Assembly (NCBI GenBank): GCA_030272785.1
Contig: JARXKM010000023.1
Coordinates: forward strand, 1-32,313
Length of the DNA: 32,313 bases
Reading direction: 5' to 3'
Source of the DNA: Pseudomonadota bacterium
GTDB lineage: Bacteria; Pseudomonadota; Gammaproteobacteria; Burkholderiales; Burkholderiaceae_D
Each line of letters opens with the position of its first letter. Positions within the stretch are counted from its first letter, which is position 1. A program made the position numbers and the translations under genes. The notes under the pieces are model-generated. The model was given only the letters and a program-made list of their open reading frames with translations. It was not told the origin of the DNA and made no database searches. Positions 1 through 22,348 of the stretch are shown one piece after another.

Positions 1-512
1 ACGAACGGCGACGAGGCCGACAGCGCGATGAAGTGCGGCACGTAGCGCGACAGCGAGTGCAGCAGGAACAGCGCGTCGTCGCCCGAGCTGCAGCCGATGT
101 GCACGTGCTGGCCGAAGATGGTGAACTGCTTGGCCAGGTAGCCGTACAGCGACGACAGTTCCTGGAAGCGCGGCTTGGGATAGATCTTCTGCTGCGACCA
201 GTGCTGGAACGGGTGGGTGCCGCCGCCGCCGATGCCGATGTTGAGCGTGTCGGCAGCCGCCACCAGCAGCTTGCGGATCTCGTGCAGTTCGGCCAGCAGC
301 GGCACGTGGCTGGTCTGCACGCTCGAATTAATCTCGATCATGCTCTCGGTGATTTCCGGCGTGACGTTGCCGGGGAAGGGCTTGCGCGAGAGCAGGTGCA
401 GCAGGTCGGGGCTGGCGGCGGTCAGGTCGAAGTCCGACAGGCTCACCAGCTGCAGCTCGAGTTCGACGCCGAAGGTGAGCGACTGCGATGTGGCAAACGG
501 TTCAAGCGCCAT
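1..512 (-). CDS. Carboxylate-amine ligase, YbdK/glutamate-cysteine ligase-like (partial; C-terminus beyond window start)
   Basis: Minus-strand translation from ATG at 512: [41 protein letters not shown]...[52 protein letters not shown]...[10 protein letters not shown], typical of the YbdK/GCS2 family. Confidence 0.85.
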
Positions 513-1692
513 GTTGCTGCTCCGCCGTTTCGCGCGCCCAGACCAGCGCGCGCTGCAAGATGATGGGACCGAACAGTTCGAGCAGCAGGCTGACCGCGGC
601 CAGCGAGCGCGCCGCGTCGGCCACCGGCAGGCCGGCCTGGCGCGCGTGTTCGAGCAGCAGGATGACGAAGATCGACAGCGGCGCCAGCCCCAGGCCGGTC
701 AGCGCGCCCTTGCGCCACGAGATGCCCGACAGGTGCGCGAAGGCGGTCACGCCGAGCGTCTTGGTGAGCAGGCGCGCCGCCACCAGCGCCAGTGCCAGCA
801 GGCCGCCGCCCTGCACATGGCGCCAGTCGAGCGTCGAGCCGGCGAACACGAACAGCAGCACCGCCAGCAGCTCGCCGAGCGCGCCGAAGTTGCGCTGCGC
901 CTGGCCAAAGGCGACGCGGCGATGGCGCGCGGTCAGGCCGAACGCCAGCGCGGCGACCACCGGCGAGAGGTGGAACGTGTAGGTGACCGCCACCAGCAAA
1001 ATGACCGACAGCGCGAAGGCGACGGTGGCGTCCTGCGCCAGGTTGCCGAGCGCGCGCAGCACGCCCGGCACCACCACCCCGGCGACGGCGCCGGCGACGG
1101 CCGACAGCGCCAGCAGCACCAGGCTGTTGAGGGTGGCGTCGGCCAGGTCTTCGGAGGCGCGGAACATCGAGAAACCGACCAGCAGGTTGAAGGCGAACAC
1201 CGCCAGCACGCAATTGAGCGCCGCCAGGTGCATCACCCGTTCGGTGACCTGGCCGGAGCTGCGCTGCTCGTTGATGACGCGCACCACCGTGGCCGGCGAG
1301 GTCGCCATCGACAGCGCCGCCAGCATCAGTGCGCTCATTTGCGCGCTGCCGAAGAAGCTCGCCACCAAGTAGGCGGCGCCGAAGGTGGCGCCGGCTTCGA
1401 CCAGGCCGGTCACGCCGATCCACGGATTGCTGCGCAGCCAGCGCAGGTTGATGCGGTAGCCCAGTTCGAACAGCATCAGGCCGAAGGCGACGTCGGCCAT
1501 CACCAGCACCGGGCCGCCCTCGGGCACCGGCAGCACGCCGACCTGGCCGCTGGCCAGCATGAAGCCGACCAGGCCGTAGAAGCTGACGCGCGGCAGGCCG
1601 GTCCAGCGATTGCCGAATTCGCCCGTCAGCCAGGCCAGGGCAACGGCGAACGGCCAGGCGAGGCTGGTGAGGATCGACAGCAAGTCGGGCAT
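502..1692 (-). CDS. Cation:proton antiporter, CPA2/KefB-like membrane protein
   Basis: C-terminal part of ORF 502..3495 (-) from [52 protein letters not shown]; many hydrophobic TM segments; overlaps the YbdK start by about 11 nt. Confidence 0.8.
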
Positions 1693-1887
1693 GTGGGTGT
1701 CCTTCAAAGCTGGGCTGGAGAGGCGATGATACAAGAGCGCGGCGGCGCCGCCGGTTCGTTTGGCGTGCGCACCGTCATGCCCGTTTGCTGAGGCGGCGCA
1801 TGCCGGCGCCGCGCAAGTCCGGCGAACATGATGACAAGTCGTTAAGTGCAAATCTATCAATAACCTGCAAGACTTCCGGTCGACGCC

Positions 1888-4467
1888 ATGGCAAGCACAA
1901 CTTTCTCCTGGATCCACCTGACCGATTTTCACTATGGCCTGGACGGCCAGGACACCCTGTGGCCGAACCTGCGCAAGCCCTTCTTCGACGATCTTGCCGA
2001 GATGCATAAGCGCACCGGGCCGTGGCAGGTGGTCTTCTTTACCGGCGACCTGGTGCAGCAAGGCCGTGCGCAGGAGTTCGCAGCGATGCAGCGCGAGGTG
2101 CTCGACCGGCTGTGGCGCAAATTGCACGAGCTCGGCTCCGGCGACGCGGTCCTGCTGGCGGTGCCCGGCAACCATGACCTGGTGCGTCCCGATCCGGCGC
2201 CCGATGACCCGGCGCGCGACAAGTTGCTCGAGAAAGAGCGCTTCGCCGAGGTGGCGGCCCGGTTCTGGGGCAAGCCAGACGGTGGCTACCGGCGCGTCGT
2301 CAATACCGCGTTCGCCGCCTACAGCGACTGGTGGGGCAGCGCATCGCAGCGTCCGCGCTCGCTGCAGAACGGCATCTTGCCCGGCGATTTCGCCTGCACG
2401 CTCGACTGCGGCGACCATGCGGTCGGTATCGTCGGTCTCAATACCGCGTTTTTCCAGCTCGCCAGCGGCGACTATCAAGGCAAGCTCGAATGGGATGCGC
2501 GCCAAATGCATGCCGTGTGCGGCACGGCCACTGACGACTGGGTCGAGCGGCACGCGGTGTGCATGCTGTTGACCCATCATGGGCCGGACTGGCTGAGCGA
2601 AGCGGCGCGCCGCCATGGCGACAGCGAGATTCTCCCGGCGGGCCAGTTCGCGCTGCACCTGTACGGCCACGCGCACACGGCCAGCTTTCAGCAGCGTCGC
2701 AGCATCGGCGAGCCGGACGCGGTGCGCCTGTGCCAGTCGCGTTCCGTGTTCGGCATGGAATGGTGCGGCGACCCGCCCGTCGTCACCCGCCAGCATGGTT
2801 ACGCGATCGGACGGATTGCCTTTGACGACGGCCAGGCCAGCCTGCGGCTGTGGCCGCGCGTGGCGACCGACCAGCCGAGGGGAATGGGCTGGCGCTACAT
2901 TGCCGACGGGCCCAGCGGGCCGCTCGACAGCGACGGCGGCACCCGGGCCGAGCGCGTCGCGTGGCGCGGTGCGCCGGCGCCGGGCGTGGCCGGAGAACGG
3001 GCGGCGCACTCGTTGCTGCCGTCGCGCCGCCCGTTCTTCGGCCGCAGCCGGGAGTTGCAGGACATCGCCGCCTGCCTGCTGCCGGACTACACCGGCTGGG
3101 GTGTGCTGCTCGACGGCCCCGGCGGCTTCGGCAAGACCTCGCTGGCGCTCGAGGCGGCGCATGCGGCGCCGGCCGCGCTGTATCCGCTCAAGCTGTTCAT
3201 CACCGCCAAGTCGAGCCGGCTCGGCGCCGACGGCGTGCACCCGGTCGACGATCACCGGGTGGCCGACTATTTCGCCATGCTCACCGAGATCGGCCACGCG
3301 CTCGGGCTCGACAAGATCGACAGCGTGCCGCAGGAGCTGCGCGCGCGCCAGGTGCGCCACGCGCTGGCGGCGCAGCGCGTGCTGCTGGTGCTCGACAACC
3401 TCGAGTCGTTCAGCCGCGAGGAGCGGCACCGCGTCTACGACCTGCTCGACTTCCTGCCGTCCGGCTGCCGCGCCATCGTCACCAGCCGCGGCCACGACGA
3501 GCGCGCCGCGCCCACCTTACGGCTCGACAAGCTCGATGTCGATGCCGCCCGCCGCCTGCTCGAAAAACTCGGCGAGCGGATGCGCGCGATCGCCCGCCTG
3601 AGCGACGCCGAGCACCACACGCTGTACGTCGAGACCGGCGGCAATCCCTTGCTGCTGACCTGGGTGGCGGCCCAGCTCGGGCGTACCCACGGCAGCGCGT
3701 ACAGCGTGGCGGCGGCCGTGTCGCGCCTGCACGCGGCGTATCGCAAGCAACGCTCGAACGCGCACAACGATCCGCTCGAATTCGTCTTCGGCGCCTTGCT
3801 CGACAGCTGCAGCCGCAGCGAAACGGCGGTGCTGGCGTCGCTGTGCCATTTCAGCGAACCGGCGCCGCTGGCCTGCCTGCTGCCGATTGCCAACATGCAC
3901 GACAGCGCCGTGCGCGGCGCACTCGACGACTTGCGCGAGCGCGCCGTGCTGATCGAGGACGACGCCCATGGCCGCTGGTCGCTGCCGCCCTTGTGCTCGC
4001 GCTTCCTGCGCCACCGGCGTCGCGCCGCCGTCAGCGCGGCCGGCGGGCGGCTGCAACAGCATGCCTGCCGGCTGGCCACCCACGCCAACCGCGGCGACGG
4101 CTATGCCGAACTGGAGGGCGCCTGGCCGTTGATCGCGGCAGCCTTGCCGCTGCTCATCGAGGGCGGCAACGCGCGCCTGCAGCAGCTGTGCAAGGAACTG
4201 TATCCGTTTCTCGATTTCAGCCGGCGCTGGCATCGGCTGCTCTCGTTGAGCCAGGCGGCCGAACGCAAGGCGCTGTCGGCGGGCGACCTCGACAGCGCCG
4301 GCTGGCGCGCCTACGATGCCGGCCGGGTGCATGCGCTGCAAGGCGATGGCGATGCGGCGCAAGCGTGCCATGCGCGCTGCCTCGCTCACTGGGGCGCGGC
4401 GACCAATGCGCGTCAGGCGGCGGCGCTGGTGCGCCTTGCCCAACCGCCGCTTGTCGCGCAGGGGTGA
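1888..4467 (+). CDS. Calcineurin-like metallophosphoesterase fused to an NB-ARC/STAND-like NTPase, with a short C-terminal helical (possibly TPR-like) region
   Basis: MPE motifs: TDFHYG, FTGDLVQQG, VPGNHDL, LLTHHGPDW, LYGHAHT. NTPase motifs: Walker A GPGGFGKTS (about 3115-3141), Walker B VLLVLDNLESF (about 3379), sensor-like CRAIVTSRG, GLPL-like TGGNPLLLTWVAAQLG. Confidence 0.85.
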   Translation: MASTTFSWIHLTDFHYGLDGQDTLWPNLRKPFFDDLAEMHKRTGPWQVVFFTGDLVQQGRAQEFAAMQREVLDRLWRKLHELGSGDAVLLAVPGNHDLVRPDPAPDDPARDKLLEKERFAEVAARFWGKPDGGYRRVVNTAFAAYSDWWGSASQRPRSLQNGILPGDFACTLDCGDHAVGIVGLNTAFFQLASGDYQGKLEWDARQMHAVCGTATDDWVERHAVCMLLTHHGPDWLSEAARRHGDSEILPAGQFALHLYGHAHTASFQQRRSIGEPDAVRLCQSRSVFGMEWCGDPPVVTRQHGYAIGRIAFDDGQASLRLWPRVATDQPRGMGWRYIADGPSGPLDSDGGTRAERVAWRGAPAPGVAGERAAHSLLPSRRPFFGRSRELQDIAACLLPDYTGWGVLLDGPGGFGKTSLALEAAHAAPAALYPLKLFITAKSSRLGADGVHPVDDHRVADYFAMLTEIGHALGLDKIDSVPQELRARQVRHALAAQRVLLVLDNLESFSREERHRVYDLLDFLPSGCRAIVTSRGHDERAAPTLRLDKLDVDAARRLLEKLGERMRAIARLSDAEHHTLYVETGGNPLLLTWVAAQLGRTHGSAYSVAAAVSRLHAAYRKQRSNAHNDPLEFVFGALLDSCSRSETAVLASLCHFSEPAPLACLLPIANMHDSAVRGALDDLRERAVLIEDDAHGRWSLPPLCSRFLRHRRRAAVSAAGGRLQQHACRLATHANRGDGYAELEGAWPLIAAALPLLIEGGNARLQQLCKELYPFLDFSRRWHRLLSLSQAAERKALSAGDLDSAGWRAYDAGRVHALQGDGDAAQACHARCLAHWGAATNARQAAALVRLAQPPLVAQG

Positions 4468-4517
4468 GCGTTGTCAGATGAATGCCGGCACGCGCAAAGG
4501 GCGGCGCCGAACGGTGG

Positions 4518-5687
4518 CTACTTGCTCAGCAGCCGCATGCCGCGTTCGAGCCCGTCGATGGTGAGCGGGAACATGCGGTTGTTCATGATCTGCTTGATCA
4601 CCGAGATCGACTGGCGGTATTGCCACACGCCTTCCGGCTCCGGATTGAGCCAGACGAATTTCGGGAACTGGTGGCAGAAGCGCGCAAGCCATTCGGCGCC
4701 CGCCTCCTCGTTGTTGTACTCGACCGAGCCGCCCGGCTGCAGCACTTCGTACGGGCTCATGGTGGCGTCGCCGACGAAAATGAGCTTGGTGTCGGCCGGG
4801 TACTTGCGCAGGATGTCCCAGGTCGGGAAGCGCTCGGCGTTGCGGCGCCGGTTGTTCTTCCACAGGTAGTCGTAGACGCAGTTGTGGAAGTAGAAGAACT
4901 CCATGTTCTTGAACTCGGTCTTGGCCGCCGAAAACAGCTCCTCGGTGCGGGCGATATGGTCGTCCATGCTGCCGCCGACGTCGAGCAGCATCAGCACCTT
5001 GATCTTGTTCTTGCGCTCGGGCTGCATCTTGATGTCGAGGTAGCCGGCATTGCTGGCGGTGGCGCGGATGGTGGCGTCGAGCGCCAGTTCGTCCTCGGCG
5101 CCCTCGCGGGCGAACTTGCGCAGGCGCCGCAGCGCCACCTTGATGTTGCGCGTGCCCAGTTCGCGCTCGGCGTCGTAGTCCTTGTAGGCGCGCTGCTCCC
5201 ACACCTTGACGGCGGTGCGGTTGCCGCCGGCGCCGCCGATGCGGATGCCTTCCGGGTTGGTGCCGCCGTTGCCGAACGGCGAGGTGCCGCCGCTGCCGAT
5301 CCACTTGCTGCCGCCCTCGTGACGTTCCTTTTGCTCCTTCAGCAGTTCATTCAAGCGGTCCATCAGCTTGTCGTAGCCGAATTTTTCCAGCGCCGCCTTC
5401 TGCTCGGGCGTCAGCTCGCGTTCCATCCGCTTGATCAGCCAGTCGAGCGGGATCGCGCTGTTGGCCTCGAAAGCGCCGTTGATGCCCTTGAAGTAGTGGC
5501 CGAAGGCGCGGTCGAATTTGTCGAAATGGGCCTCGTCCTTGACCATCACCAGCCGCGCCAGGAAGTAGAAGTCGTCCATCGACTGGCCGATCAGGTTCTT
5601 TTCCATCGCCTCGAGCAGGGTCAGGAATTCCTTGATCGTCACCGGGATCTTGGCGTCCTTGAGCGTGAAGAAGAAGTCGATCAGCAT
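4518..5687 (-). CDS. VWA domain-containing CoxE-like protein
   Basis: ORF MLIDFFFTLKDAKIPVTIKEFLTLLEAMEK...KIKVLMLLDVGGSMDDHI (MIDAS DxGxS)...; adjacent to a MoxR ATPase gene. Confidence 0.88.
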   Translation of the reverse strand: MLIDFFFTLKDAKIPVTIKEFLTLLEAMEKNLIGQSMDDFYFLARLVMVKDEAHFDKFDRAFGHYFKGINGAFEANSAIPLDWLIKRMERELTPEQKAALEKFGYDKLMDRLNELLKEQKERHEGGSKWIGSGGTSPFGNGGTNPEGIRIGGAGGNRTAVKVWEQRAYKDYDAERELGTRNIKVALRRLRKFAREGAEDELALDATIRATASNAGYLDIKMQPERKNKIKVLMLLDVGGSMDDHIARTEELFSAAKTEFKNMEFFYFHNCVYDYLWKNNRRRNAERFPTWDILRKYPADTKLIFVGDATMSPYEVLQPGGSVEYNNEEAGAEWLARFCHQFPKFVWLNPEPEGVWQYRQSISVIKQIMNNRMFPLTIDGLERGMRLLSK

Positions 5688-5688
5688 G

Positions 5689-6279
5689 TCAGGCGCCCGC
5701 GTGCAGCTGCAGGCGGTCGTGCAGCGCCGATTCGATGCCGGCCCATTCGCCGCGCAGGATGCTGTAGATGACGGTGTCGCGCACGCTGCCGTCGCGCCGC
5801 GCGCCGTGGTGGCGGATCACGCCGTCCTTGTGCGCGCCGAGCCGTTCGATGGCCGCCTGCGAGGCGTGATTGAGGTTGTCGGTGCGCAGGCCGACCACCG
5901 CGCAGCCGAGCGTGTTGAAGGCGTGCGCCAGCAGCATCAGCTTGCAGCTGGTGTTGACGCCGCTGCGCTGGCGGCTCTTGGCGTACCAGGTGTGGCCGAT
6001 CTCGACGCGGTCGATGTCGGCGGCGATGTCGTGGTAGCTGGTGGTGCCCATCACGGCGCCGCTGGCGGCGTCGATGACGGCGAAGGCGAGCCGGTTCGGC
6101 ATCGCCAGCGCGGTGGCGATGTACTCGTCGACCTGCTGCGGCCCCGGCACCCAGGTCACGCGCAGGGTCCAGATCTGGCCGTCTTCGGCGGCGGCGCGCA
6201 GGCCGTCGGCGTGGCGGGGCGACAGCGGCTCGAGGCGCACGCCGTTGAATGCAAGGCTGACCGGTTCGACGTGAATCAT
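5689..6279 (-). CDS. GNAT family N-acetyltransferase (RimJ/RimL-like)
   Basis: Minus-strand ORF from MIHVEPVSLAFNGVRLEPLSPRHADGL...VIDAASGAVMGTTSYHDI...VEIGHTWYAKSRQRSGVNTSCKLMLLAHAFNTLGCAVVGLRTDNLNHASQAAIERLGA. Confidence 0.88.
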   Translation of the reverse strand: MIHVEPVSLAFNGVRLEPLSPRHADGLRAAAEDGQIWTLRVTWVPGPQQVDEYIATALAMPNRLAFAVIDAASGAVMGTTSYHDIAADIDRVEIGHTWYAKSRQRSGVNTSCKLMLLAHAFNTLGCAVVGLRTDNLNHASQAAIERLGAHKDGVIRHHGARRDGSVRDTVIYSILRGEWAGIESALHDRLQLHAGA

Positions 6280-6287
6280 CCGGCGTC

Positions 6288-7154
6288 CTAGCGGTTGGTG
6301 CGCGACATGTAGACCAGCCGTTCGAACAGGTGCACGTCCTGTTCGTTCTTGAGCAGCGCGCCGTGCAGCGGCGGCACCACGGTCTTGCTGTCCTTGCTGC
6401 GCAGCGCCTCCGGGCCGATGTCCTCGGCCAGCAGCAGCTTGAGCCAGTCGAGGAACTCCGACGTCGACGGCTTCTTCTTCAGGCCCGGCACCTCGCGCAC
6501 CTCGTAGAAGCTTTGCAGCGCCTGCGCCAGCAGATCCTGCTTCAGGGTCGGGTAGTGCACCTTGACGATCTGCTCCATCGTGTCCTTGTCGGGGAACTTG
6601 ATGTAGTGGAAGAAGCAGCGGCGCAGGAAGGCGTCCGGCAGCTCTTTTTCGTTGTTGGAGGTGATGATCACCAGCGGCCGGTGCACCGCGCTGACCATTT
6701 CGCGCGTCTCGTAGACGTAGAATTCCATGCGGTCCAGTTCGCGCAGCAGGTCGTTCGGGAACTCGATGTCGGCCTTGTCGATCTCGTCGATCAGCAGCAC
6801 CACCGGCTCGGGCGCGGTGAACGCCTGCCACAGCACGCCCTTGACGATGTAATTGTGGATGTCGCGCACGCGCTCGTCACCGAGCTGCGAATCGCGCAGG
6901 CGCGAGACGGCGTCGTATTCGTACAGGCCCTGCTGCGCCTTGGTGGTCGACTTGATGTGCCACTGCATCAGCGGCATGTCGAGCGCGGCCGCCACTTCCT
7001 CGGCCAGCATGGTCTTGCCGGTGCCCGGCTCGCCCTTGATCAGCAGCGGACGCTGCAAGGTGAGGGCGGCGTTGACCGCCAGTTTCAGGTCCGCGGTGGC
7101 GACATAGCTGTCGGAACCCGCAAAGCGGGGTGCCGGTTGGTGAGATGCATGCAT
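6288..7154 (-). CDS. MoxR-family AAA+ ATPase
   Basis: RPLLIKGEPGTGKTMLAEEVAAAL (Walker A), VVLLIDEIDKAD (Walker B), IITSNNEKELPDAFLRRCFFHYIKFPD; start chosen at MHASHQPAPRF. Confidence 0.9.
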   Translation of the reverse strand: MHASHQPAPRFAGSDSYVATADLKLAVNAALTLQRPLLIKGEPGTGKTMLAEEVAAALDMPLMQWHIKSTTKAQQGLYEYDAVSRLRDSQLGDERVRDIHNYIVKGVLWQAFTAPEPVVLLIDEIDKADIEFPNDLLRELDRMEFYVYETREMVSAVHRPLVIITSNNEKELPDAFLRRCFFHYIKFPDKDTMEQIVKVHYPTLKQDLLAQALQSFYEVREVPGLKKKPSTSEFLDWLKLLLAEDIGPEALRSKDSKTVVPPLHGALLKNEQDVHLFERLVYMSRTNR

Positions 7155-7325
7155 GGGATGTTGGCCGAGAATGGAATTGGTTCGAGTATAAGCGAAGTGC
7201 GGCGCGGCGGCAGGCGCCACCGAGAATCTGGACTGCGACCCGGTCTTGGGTTAAAATCGCAGGTTGATAGTGCAAATTGTAACTATTGCGCGGCCGGATC
7301 CGATTACCACCTTACCATTGCAACC

Positions 7326-7664
7326 ATGAAAAAAATCTTCGCACTTCTCGTGCTCGCCGGCATTTTCAATGTCGCCGCAGCGGCGGACATCGTTGGAAAC
7401 CCCAAGGCCGCAGCTGCCAAGGTGGAAATGTGTATCGGCTGCCACGGCATTCCCGGTTACAAGGCCTCGTTCCCGGAAGTGTACCGGGTACCGATGATCG
7501 GTGGCCAGTCGGCCAAGTACATCGAAAGTGCGCTGACGGCCTACAAGAAGGGTGACCGCAAGCATCCGACCATGCACGGCATTGCCGCCAGCTTGTCCGA
7601 CCAGGACATCGCCGACGTCGCCGCGTACTATGCGCAGCAGCCTTCCAACACCGCGCCGAAATAA
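7326..7664 (+). CDS. c-type cytochrome (small, exported)
   Basis: Signal peptide MKKIFALLVLAGIFNVAAAAD and CxxCH motif MCIGCH; C-terminal helix typical of class I cytochrome c. Confidence 0.9.
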   Translation: MKKIFALLVLAGIFNVAAAADIVGNPKAAAAKVEMCIGCHGIPGYKASFPEVYRVPMIGGQSAKYIESALTAYKKGDRKHPTMHGIAASLSDQDIADVAAYYAQQPSNTAPK

Positions 7665-7674
7665 GGACAGCCCC

Positions 7675-8019
7675 ATGAAAAAACTGATCACCGGCCTGTT
7701 CGTAGGCGTCGTCTCCCTCAACGCGTTCGCCGGCGGCAGTGTCGCCAGCGGCGAAGCACTGGTCAAGAAATACAGCTGCGCGGCCTGCCACGGCGCCGAC
7801 TTCAACAAGCCGGTCGACCCGAGCTACCCGAAGCTGGCTGGCCAGCCGGCCGACTACATCGCCCACGCGCTGACCGCCTACAAGCGCGGCGACGGCGCCA
7901 ACGGCCGCAACAACCCGATCATGGGCGGCCAGGTCAAGCCGCTGTCGGACAAGGACATCGCCGACATCGGCGCCTATCTGGCCAGCCTGCCCACGACGCT
8001 GGTGGTCGGCCACCGCTGA
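7675..8019 (+). CDS. c-type cytochrome (small, exported), paralogous neighbour
   Basis: Signal peptide MKKLITGLFVGVVSLNAFA and CxxCH motif SCAACH; 10 nt downstream of the previous cytochrome gene. Confidence 0.9.
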   Translation: MKKLITGLFVGVVSLNAFAGGSVASGEALVKKYSCAACHGADFNKPVDPSYPKLAGQPADYIAHALTAYKRGDGANGRNNPIMGGQVKPLSDKDIADIGAYLASLPTTLVVGHR

Positions 8020-8051
8020 TCGACGCCGTCCGCGGACGGTGCCACCAAGAC

Positions 8052-8095
8052 ATCCTTTCAGCCGGCGCGCGTCGCCGGTGCGAAAGGATTTTTTT
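8052..8095 (+). terminator. Rho-independent terminator after the cytochrome pair
   Basis: atcctttcagccggcg-cgcgt-cgccggtgcgaaaggat followed by a T run. Confidence 0.8.
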
Positions 8096-8109
8096 CGTCT
8101 GAACATAAA

Positions 8110-8207
8110 AAACCGGGACAGACCCGGTTTCCGCCGTAGAAAAAACCGGGACAGACCCGGTTTTCGCCGTAGCGGCTGCCTTGTAAAAACCGGGTCTGTC
8201 CCGGTTT
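8110..8207. repeat. Cluster of three REP-like 21-bp hairpins (AAACCGGG-ACAGA-CCCGGTTT): 8110-8130 (+), 8143-8163 (+), 8187-8207 (inverted)
   Basis: 8-bp arms AAACCGGG/CCCGGTTT with loop ACAGA (TCTGT in the inverted copy); same unit recurs at about 22.1-22.35 kb. Confidence 0.9.
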
Positions 8208-8236
8208 TCTGCGGTTTCTGCGCCGAGCAGGACAGG

Positions 8237-8656
8237 CTAGCGCTTGCGCACGCACTCGACGTAGGCGTCGGCGTCCGGCGGCACGCCGTCGCGCTGCGAA
8301 TTCCAGATCATCTCGCCGAGGCATTCCATGATCCGGTGGTGCGCCTCGTGCTGGCCGACGCGGCCGGTGAGCGCATTGATGGCGTCGCGGATGCCGCGCG
8401 GCTGGTCGACCGAGACCTGCTCGGAAATCGACAGGTGCATCGACAGGTGCAGGAAGGGATTGGTCCTGCCGCCTTCGACGGCATAGTCGCGCGCCAGCGC
8501 GGCGTCGACGTCGGCCAGCTCGGCGTCGTACTCGGGATGGCCGGCGATCCAGTCGCCCGCGATCGCTTCCATCGGGCTGAGGATGTCGCCGGCGCGCTGC
8601 TTGCGGAACACGTCGCAAAAGAAACGGCGGACGTCGTCGGAGGACGGTGTGAACAT
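8237..8656 (-). CDS. DUF1841 family protein
   Basis: MFTPSSDDVRRFFCDVFRKQRAGDILSPMEAIAGDWIAGHPEYDAEL...NPFLHLSMHLSISEQVSVDQPRGIR; longer start at 8689 possible. Confidence 0.75.
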   Translation of the reverse strand: MFTPSSDDVRRFFCDVFRKQRAGDILSPMEAIAGDWIAGHPEYDAELADVDAALARDYAVEGGRTNPFLHLSMHLSISEQVSVDQPRGIRDAINALTGRVGQHEAHHRIMECLGEMIWNSQRDGVPPDADAYVECVRKR

Positions 8657-22102: not shown

Positions 22103-22348
22103 AAACCGGGACAGACCCGGTTTTTGGCATTGCCACGGGCTGATAATTGCCTCAATACCGGGTCTGTCCCGGTTTAGCGCGCAACGCCCTTTGGCGCGAA
22201 CTGGGCCAGCGATGATGGAAGAGCAGCAGCGCCACCGCAGCGACGACTGCGCATGGCCGCGGTCGACTGATCCCGAAACCGGGACAGACCCGGTTTTCGG
22301 CATTGCCACGAGACGATGTTTGCCTCAATACCGGGTCTGTCCCGGTTT
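22103..22348. repeat. Second REP-like cluster: 22103-22123 (+), 22155-22175 (inverted), 22276-22296 (+), 22328-22348 (inverted)
   Basis: Same AAACCGGG-ACAGA-CCCGGTTT hairpin as at 8110-8207; inverted copies read ATACCGGGTCTGTCCCGGTTT. Confidence 0.9.

Follow-up and report, generated by a model that had tools for sequence, protein, structure and literature searches.

Within a 32,313-nucleotide stretch of DNA from a Pseudomonadota bacterium (hereafter the window), a single gene encodes a calcineurin-like metallophosphoesterase (MPE) joined to a STAND NTPase. We consider it likely that this gene represents a rare family of one-gene, NLR-like conflict proteins, spread by horizontal transfer and laid out as effector, NOD, arm and TPR sensor, and that the copy in the window is a disarmed remnant of such a protein.

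Domain architecture of the fusion protein

The features of the locus, with their positions in the window, are:

1888..4467, plus strand: MPE-STAND gene (metallophosphoesterase-STAND), ATG start, 859 aa, uninterrupted; C-terminally truncated, as the family length is 1026-1043 aa
1888..2862, plus strand: calcineurin-like MPE domain, residues 1-325 (PF00149, invariant ligands, homologue model)
3016..3756, plus strand: STAND NBD and helical domain, about residues 377-623 (NB-ARC PF00931, conserved motifs, Foldseek)
3115-3138, plus strand: Walker A, GPGGFGKT, within the STAND NBD
3382-3399, plus strand: Walker B, LLVLDN, within the STAND NBD
Residues 584-589, plus strand: GGNPLL motif, within the NBD and helical-domain segment
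3772..4017, plus strand: winged-helix domain, about residues 629-710, with wing strands at 689-691 and 696-698, likewise in the intact homologue
4021..4401, plus strand: arm of six helices forming three TPR-like hairpins, about residues 712-838, counted against the anatomy of PH0952 (PMC6468293)
4408..4467, plus strand: TPR sensor stub, with homology to 4437 followed by unrelated codons and the stop
502..1692, minus strand: antiporter flank, a monovalent-cation/proton-antiporter-like membrane protein by sequence appearance; outside the system
4518..5687, minus strand: VWA flank, a VWA_CoxE-type protein (PF05762, E 5e-8); outside the system
1706..4518, no strand: segment replacing the antiporter-VWA interval of two congeners (blastn empty-site comparison)

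The original prediction of an 859-aa fusion between a phosphoesterase and a STAND NTPase was confirmed by Pfam, with both PF00149 and PF00931 scoring above their cut-offs. The Metallophos match (E 5.8e-8) covers residues 9-264, and the metal ligands of the DxH, GD, GNHD, H and GHxH set (D13, H15, D54, N95, H96, H230, H261 and H263) are all intact. Every homologue that spans these positions retains the ligands, as well as K416 and T417 of the P-loop; the complete classical ligand set proposed earlier was thus found as described, and the site is not degenerate. Since the AlphaFold2 model of the window protein (11 relatives, mean pLDDT 71) was poor in the MPE, a model of an intact homologue was built from 24 sequences (pLDDT 84). 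In that model the MPE has an SMPDL3A/class III nucleotide phosphodiesterase-like fold, its best structural matches including SMPDL3B/A, purple acid phosphatase and Rv0805. The modelled domain may hydrolyse cyclic nucleotides.

The NB-ARC match (E 1.3e-5) spans residues 406-599, and the homologues hardly vary in Walker A (GPGGxGKT), LLVLDN and GGNPLL. A TSRG motif noted earlier is present in the window protein, whereas relatives have T(S/T)RR. The NBD is followed by a helical domain, a winged-helix domain and an arm, the order expected of STAND proteins. The best Foldseek matches of the window model were all STAND proteins, namely PH0952 (PDB 6mfv, the best match, over 535-686 columns), Apaf-1, MalT and plant NLRs including NRC, which identifies the NTPase as STAND and leaves the earlier NB-ARC/STAND assignment in place over a non-STAND ATPase. 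PH0952 was again the top match of the intact-homologue model. A profile search against the PDB recovered TPR proteins, AfsR and PH0952; a PDB sequence search with the window protein alone gave nothing useful.

In PH0952 a NOD is followed by an arm built of three TPR-like hairpins and then by a TPR sensor (PMC6468293). PH0952, MalT and Apaf-1, which are STAND proteins with TPR or WD40 sensors, share the NBD-HD-WHD-arm anatomy of the window protein, in which the boundary of the arm was placed from helix order in the models, but a phosphoesterase effector is found in none of them. Unlike the window copy, PH0952 and MalT retain a TPR sensor.

Sensor loss, insertion site and module exchange

Intact homologues (n=8) are 1026-1043 aa long and end in about five TPR units. 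The window copy is without ~180 aa, the whole TPR sensor, and ends at the arm/sensor boundary: measured against PH0952, it retains effector, NOD and arm and has lost essentially the entire sensor. In tblastn, its homology stops at 4437 (L033 homologue: residue 865). Nine codons of unrelated sequence lead to a stop, and 50 bp further on lies the stop codon of the VWA gene, which is convergent. The roughly 200 aa that had been assigned to the region after the NTPase are accounted for by the winged helix and arm (about 629-838) plus ~10 sensor residues. The C-terminal repeat sensor typical of STAND proteins is a feature of the family and not of the window copy. The earlier suggestion of a minimal sensor or another mode of activation is not supported: the TPR sensor is complete in intact relatives, and the window copy is truncated at its C-terminus. 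As read from the sequence, the window copy is a 3' deletion and not a minimal-sensor design.

A frameshift hiding the sensor was ruled out, as tblastn with an intact homologue found nothing significant in the other frames downstream of 4437 and no continuation past it. A sensor on another contig was likewise ruled out, a search of the genome giving only generic TPR matches of 24-25% identity. The frame is open and the composition host-like (GC3 of 0.88, a normal value), indicating that decay, if any, is recent. The collections contain no sister copy, the nearest homologues being about 48-69% identical to the window copy.

The gene is solitary and the genes on both sides are ordinary, as had been predicted. 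The VWA gene occurs in 5/5 genomes of the genus, with main matches of 92-97% identity in congeners, and the MPE-STAND gene was absent from all four congeners searched, so the universal presence in the genus that had been named beforehand as speaking against the prediction was not seen. In two congeners the flanks are contiguous by blastn: window positions 1-1705 and 4519-7895 lie 195 bp apart in G001, and 1-1703 and 4519-8020 lie 184 bp apart in G004. The antiporter-VWA interval is thus 184-195 bp in these genomes versus 2.8 kb in the window.

True homologues were found in three of the 394 genomes of the family sample, the window's own included; in a few further genomes of that sample the MPE is joined to other partners. 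The class sample (369 genomes) held one other relative, a TIR version, and the phylum sample (399 genomes) yielded no further one. Intact homologues occur in Methylococcaceae, Competibacteraceae, Chromatiaceae, Contendobacter, Lamprocystis, Kuenenia and Holophagales, and also in the window's own family (G005). The gene is therefore patchy, has spread horizontally and was inserted between the antiporter and VWA genes. The homologue search proposed with the original prediction thus bore out a patchy fusion, but not proximity to defence genes: in the ORF lists around the intact homologues no defence islands were evident and the neighbours were apparently ordinary genes. One neighbour (L034) resembles a PIN toxin.

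Both halves of the protein are exchanged. A protein of 845 aa (genome G591, locus L080) shares the NTPase-winged helix-arm chassis (40% identity across residues 377-850 of the window protein); it differs in having a TIR-like domain (TIR_2, E 5e-6, just below the Pfam cut-off) in place of the MPE, and a complete TPR sensor. Conversely, the MPE module is fused in other phyla to caspase, TIR, SIR2+TIR, Death-like bDLD1, nSTAND5, AAA_35 and NB-ARC domains. Two-way shuffling of modules is a hallmark of effector-swapping conflict proteins. Relatives of the MPE are also carried on mobile elements: one lies directly behind a tyrosine (phage) integrase (L071), one is on another viral contig (L073) and further ones are on plasmids.

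Proposed function and rival readings

The closest experimental precedent is DS-8, a single protein with a metallophosphatase and a NACHT domain that protects E. coli against phage; its defence is abolished by mutating either the enzyme or the NTPase, and SMPDL3A-like proteins are the reported structural neighbours of its MPE (PMC13092281, Science 2026). DS-8 (NF053861) and the window protein both have an N-terminal SMPDL3A-like MPE followed by a STAND-type P-loop NTPase in one protein, with the active-site motifs of both intact in the window protein, and DS-8 (from DefensePredictor) is likewise an isolated one-gene system. The window protein also hits the anti-phage models DS8 and DS9, though just within its MPE, and against NF053861 the window protein scored 36.5 bits, again over the MPE only, compared with a full-length cut-off of 790. 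In contrast to DS-8, the window protein has an NB-ARC-type NTPase; intact relatives add a TPR sensor to it, which the window copy lacks. The MPE region is also homologous to the PADLOC candidate PDC-S60 (PDLC05051; E 3.3e-10, match limited to 4-242 of 1027). Membership of Avs (AVAST) was rejected, as the PADLOC scan gave only PDC-S60 and an 'Effector' model for the MPE region.

Calcineurin-type effectors beside STAND NTPases were predicted earlier (Kaur et al. 2020, PMC7159879; PMC8195603). In the available text of these two surveys, predicted conflict systems use the calcineurin-like phosphoesterase as an interchangeable N-terminal effector, as they do TIR and caspase, although in other contexts (ternary, TRADD-N, lectin-fold and others), and the NB-ARC-TPR MPE family does not appear there by name. 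The phosphoesterase-STAND kind of protein is therefore already known from DS-8, and the present family is a new, little-studied variation on it.

For intact members we propose a mechanism modelled on STAND biology (PMC6468293) and on the analogy with DS-8. At rest, the TPR sensor and arm would most likely keep the NOD shut with ADP inside. Once the sensor bound a trigger derived from an invader, the NOD would be released, and ATP-bound NODs would then oligomerise, switching on the clustered phosphoesterases. The active enzymes would hydrolyse a phosphodiester or nucleotide substrate, and infection would be halted, probably at the cell's expense. The earlier idea of a regulated nucleotide phosphodiesterase in conflict or defence fits such a scheme and has DS-8 as its precedent; the defence role, oligomerisation and substrate are proposed by analogy for the family, and defence by the window copy itself is doubtful.

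The same architecture could instead belong to a STAND regulator of signal transduction, in which the TPR sensor recognises a metabolite or a partner from the cell itself and thereby governs a cyclic-nucleotide phosphodiesterase, so that a second messenger is tuned much as MalT or AfsR tune transcription. MalT is indeed among the structure matches and AfsR among the profile matches, the MPE fold resembles Rv0805, a class III phosphodiesterase, and the genes are solitary among apparently ordinary ones. We nevertheless regard this as unlikely: a housekeeping regulator would not typically be so extremely rare and patchy across phyla or leave an empty site in congeners, nor would it typically swap its effector for TIR or have its MPE fused to caspase, TIR and SIR2, and no DNA-binding output domain was found. 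The neighbours raise another reading, in which a vWA-MoxR ternary conflict system includes this gene: VWA_CoxE and MoxR-like AAA genes follow it here, and such systems carry calcineurin and STAND effectors, according to the available text of PMC7159879. This is scarcely credible, because the VWA gene occurs in congeners that have no MPE-STAND gene and is convergent with it, and no such pair was recognised in the ORF lists around intact homologues. Linkage to the neighbouring VWA/MoxR genes was accordingly rejected on the empty sites, the gene having no such pair of its own. We favour the conflict-protein reading of the family because of the effector swapping, the MPE fusions, the MPE relatives on mobile elements and the DS-8 precedent. 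Weighing against it are the apparently ordinary neighbourhoods of the intact homologues and the fact that STAND NTPases serve as transcription regulators too.

That the truncation of the window copy is an assembly or binning error is quite improbable. The truncation was observed in one draft genome only, of 520 contigs and 83% completeness, and frameshifted or split copies occur in other drafts (L039 and L042, for example), but the breakpoint is internal to a contig of 32 kb, the match to congeners in the VWA gene that directly follows extends as far as the stop codon of that gene, and neither a frameshifted sensor downstream nor a sensor on another contig was found. Autoinhibition in STANDs with TPR sensors is due mainly to the arm (PMC6468293), so the truncated protein could stay folded and off, and its complete effector, NOD and arm, intact motifs, open frame and normal GC3 would also suit a functional MPE-STAND that is partly deregulated, triggered by a partner, or dominant-negative. 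Such a copy would be rather unexpected, given that the sensor, where several STANDs have their primary inducer-binding site (PMC6468293), is gone and no candidate partner gene is nearby. Over the winged-helix and helical region it resembles the L035-L057 group less closely (49%) than L033 does (64%), although the intact L027 is just as low (48%). Still less probable is that the sensor-less form is a working variant activated by, or interfering with, another STAND protein or trigger in the cell. More modestly, the intact NB-ARC-TPR family with its MPE/TIR swap may be an anti-phage system as yet without a name. The logic of a working variant would be analogous to that of truncated or helper NLRs in plants. 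We prefer to see in the window copy a probably non-functional, disarmed or decaying remnant: it probably cannot be triggered because the 3' end of the gene, and with it the entire sensor, has been lost, and it is likeliest to be non-responsive because the part that usually forms the primary inducer-binding site has gone. Its loss of function is thus a probable consequence of the deletion.

The family would be a rare addition to the NLR-like immune proteins of bacteria: its NTPase-sensor chassis bears a phosphoesterase in one protein and a TIR-like domain in another. As the weapon may differ while the trigger stays, the cleavage target of DS-8-type metallophosphoesterases becomes testable by comparison, and the family and its MPE/TIR swap merit testing more than the single window locus. 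The locus also advises caution, in that an apparently 'minimal' NLR can be a receptor minus its sensor.

Further relatives of the phosphoesterase and side observations

Phage records gave no match to the MPE-STAND family, and a direct phage location was rejected, viral contigs yielding only MPE relatives with other C-termini. MPE proteins of ~1100 aa were found at L028:6379-9660, L029:8205-11507, L071:1515-4832, L072, L073:7983-11318 and L076:7989-11300, on chromosomes, a plasmid and viral contigs; some have weak TPR matches, and no Pfam-recognised NTPase was found in those scanned.

Two family copies are interrupted by frame changes (L039 and L042), L039 also being without a ~95-residue stretch, which suggests frequent decay or draft-assembly errors. 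In the window, translations of 8060-8240 and 22190-22310 contain recurring repeats of the 'KTGSVPVF / NRDRPGF' type; these suggest a dispersed short DNA repeat in intergenic positions. The empty site of G001 also contains GGGGTCTGACCC-like repeats.

On a Pseudomonas plasmid (L077:8001-11310), an MPE gene overlaps a second, hypothetical gene of ~760 aa, and the pair, flanked by umuDC and a tyrosine recombinase, may be a split version. G005, a relative of the window genome, encodes an 821-aa MPE-PtuA fusion (L032:7722-10184, minus strand), with a DS-8/DS-9-like MPE at residues 7-304 and a PtuA-like (Septu / retron Ec78) AAA ATPase at 357-811. In two cyanobacterial proteins (L045:8375-11071 and L047:257-2983), the MPE is C-terminal, behind bDLD1, the reverse of the order in the window protein.
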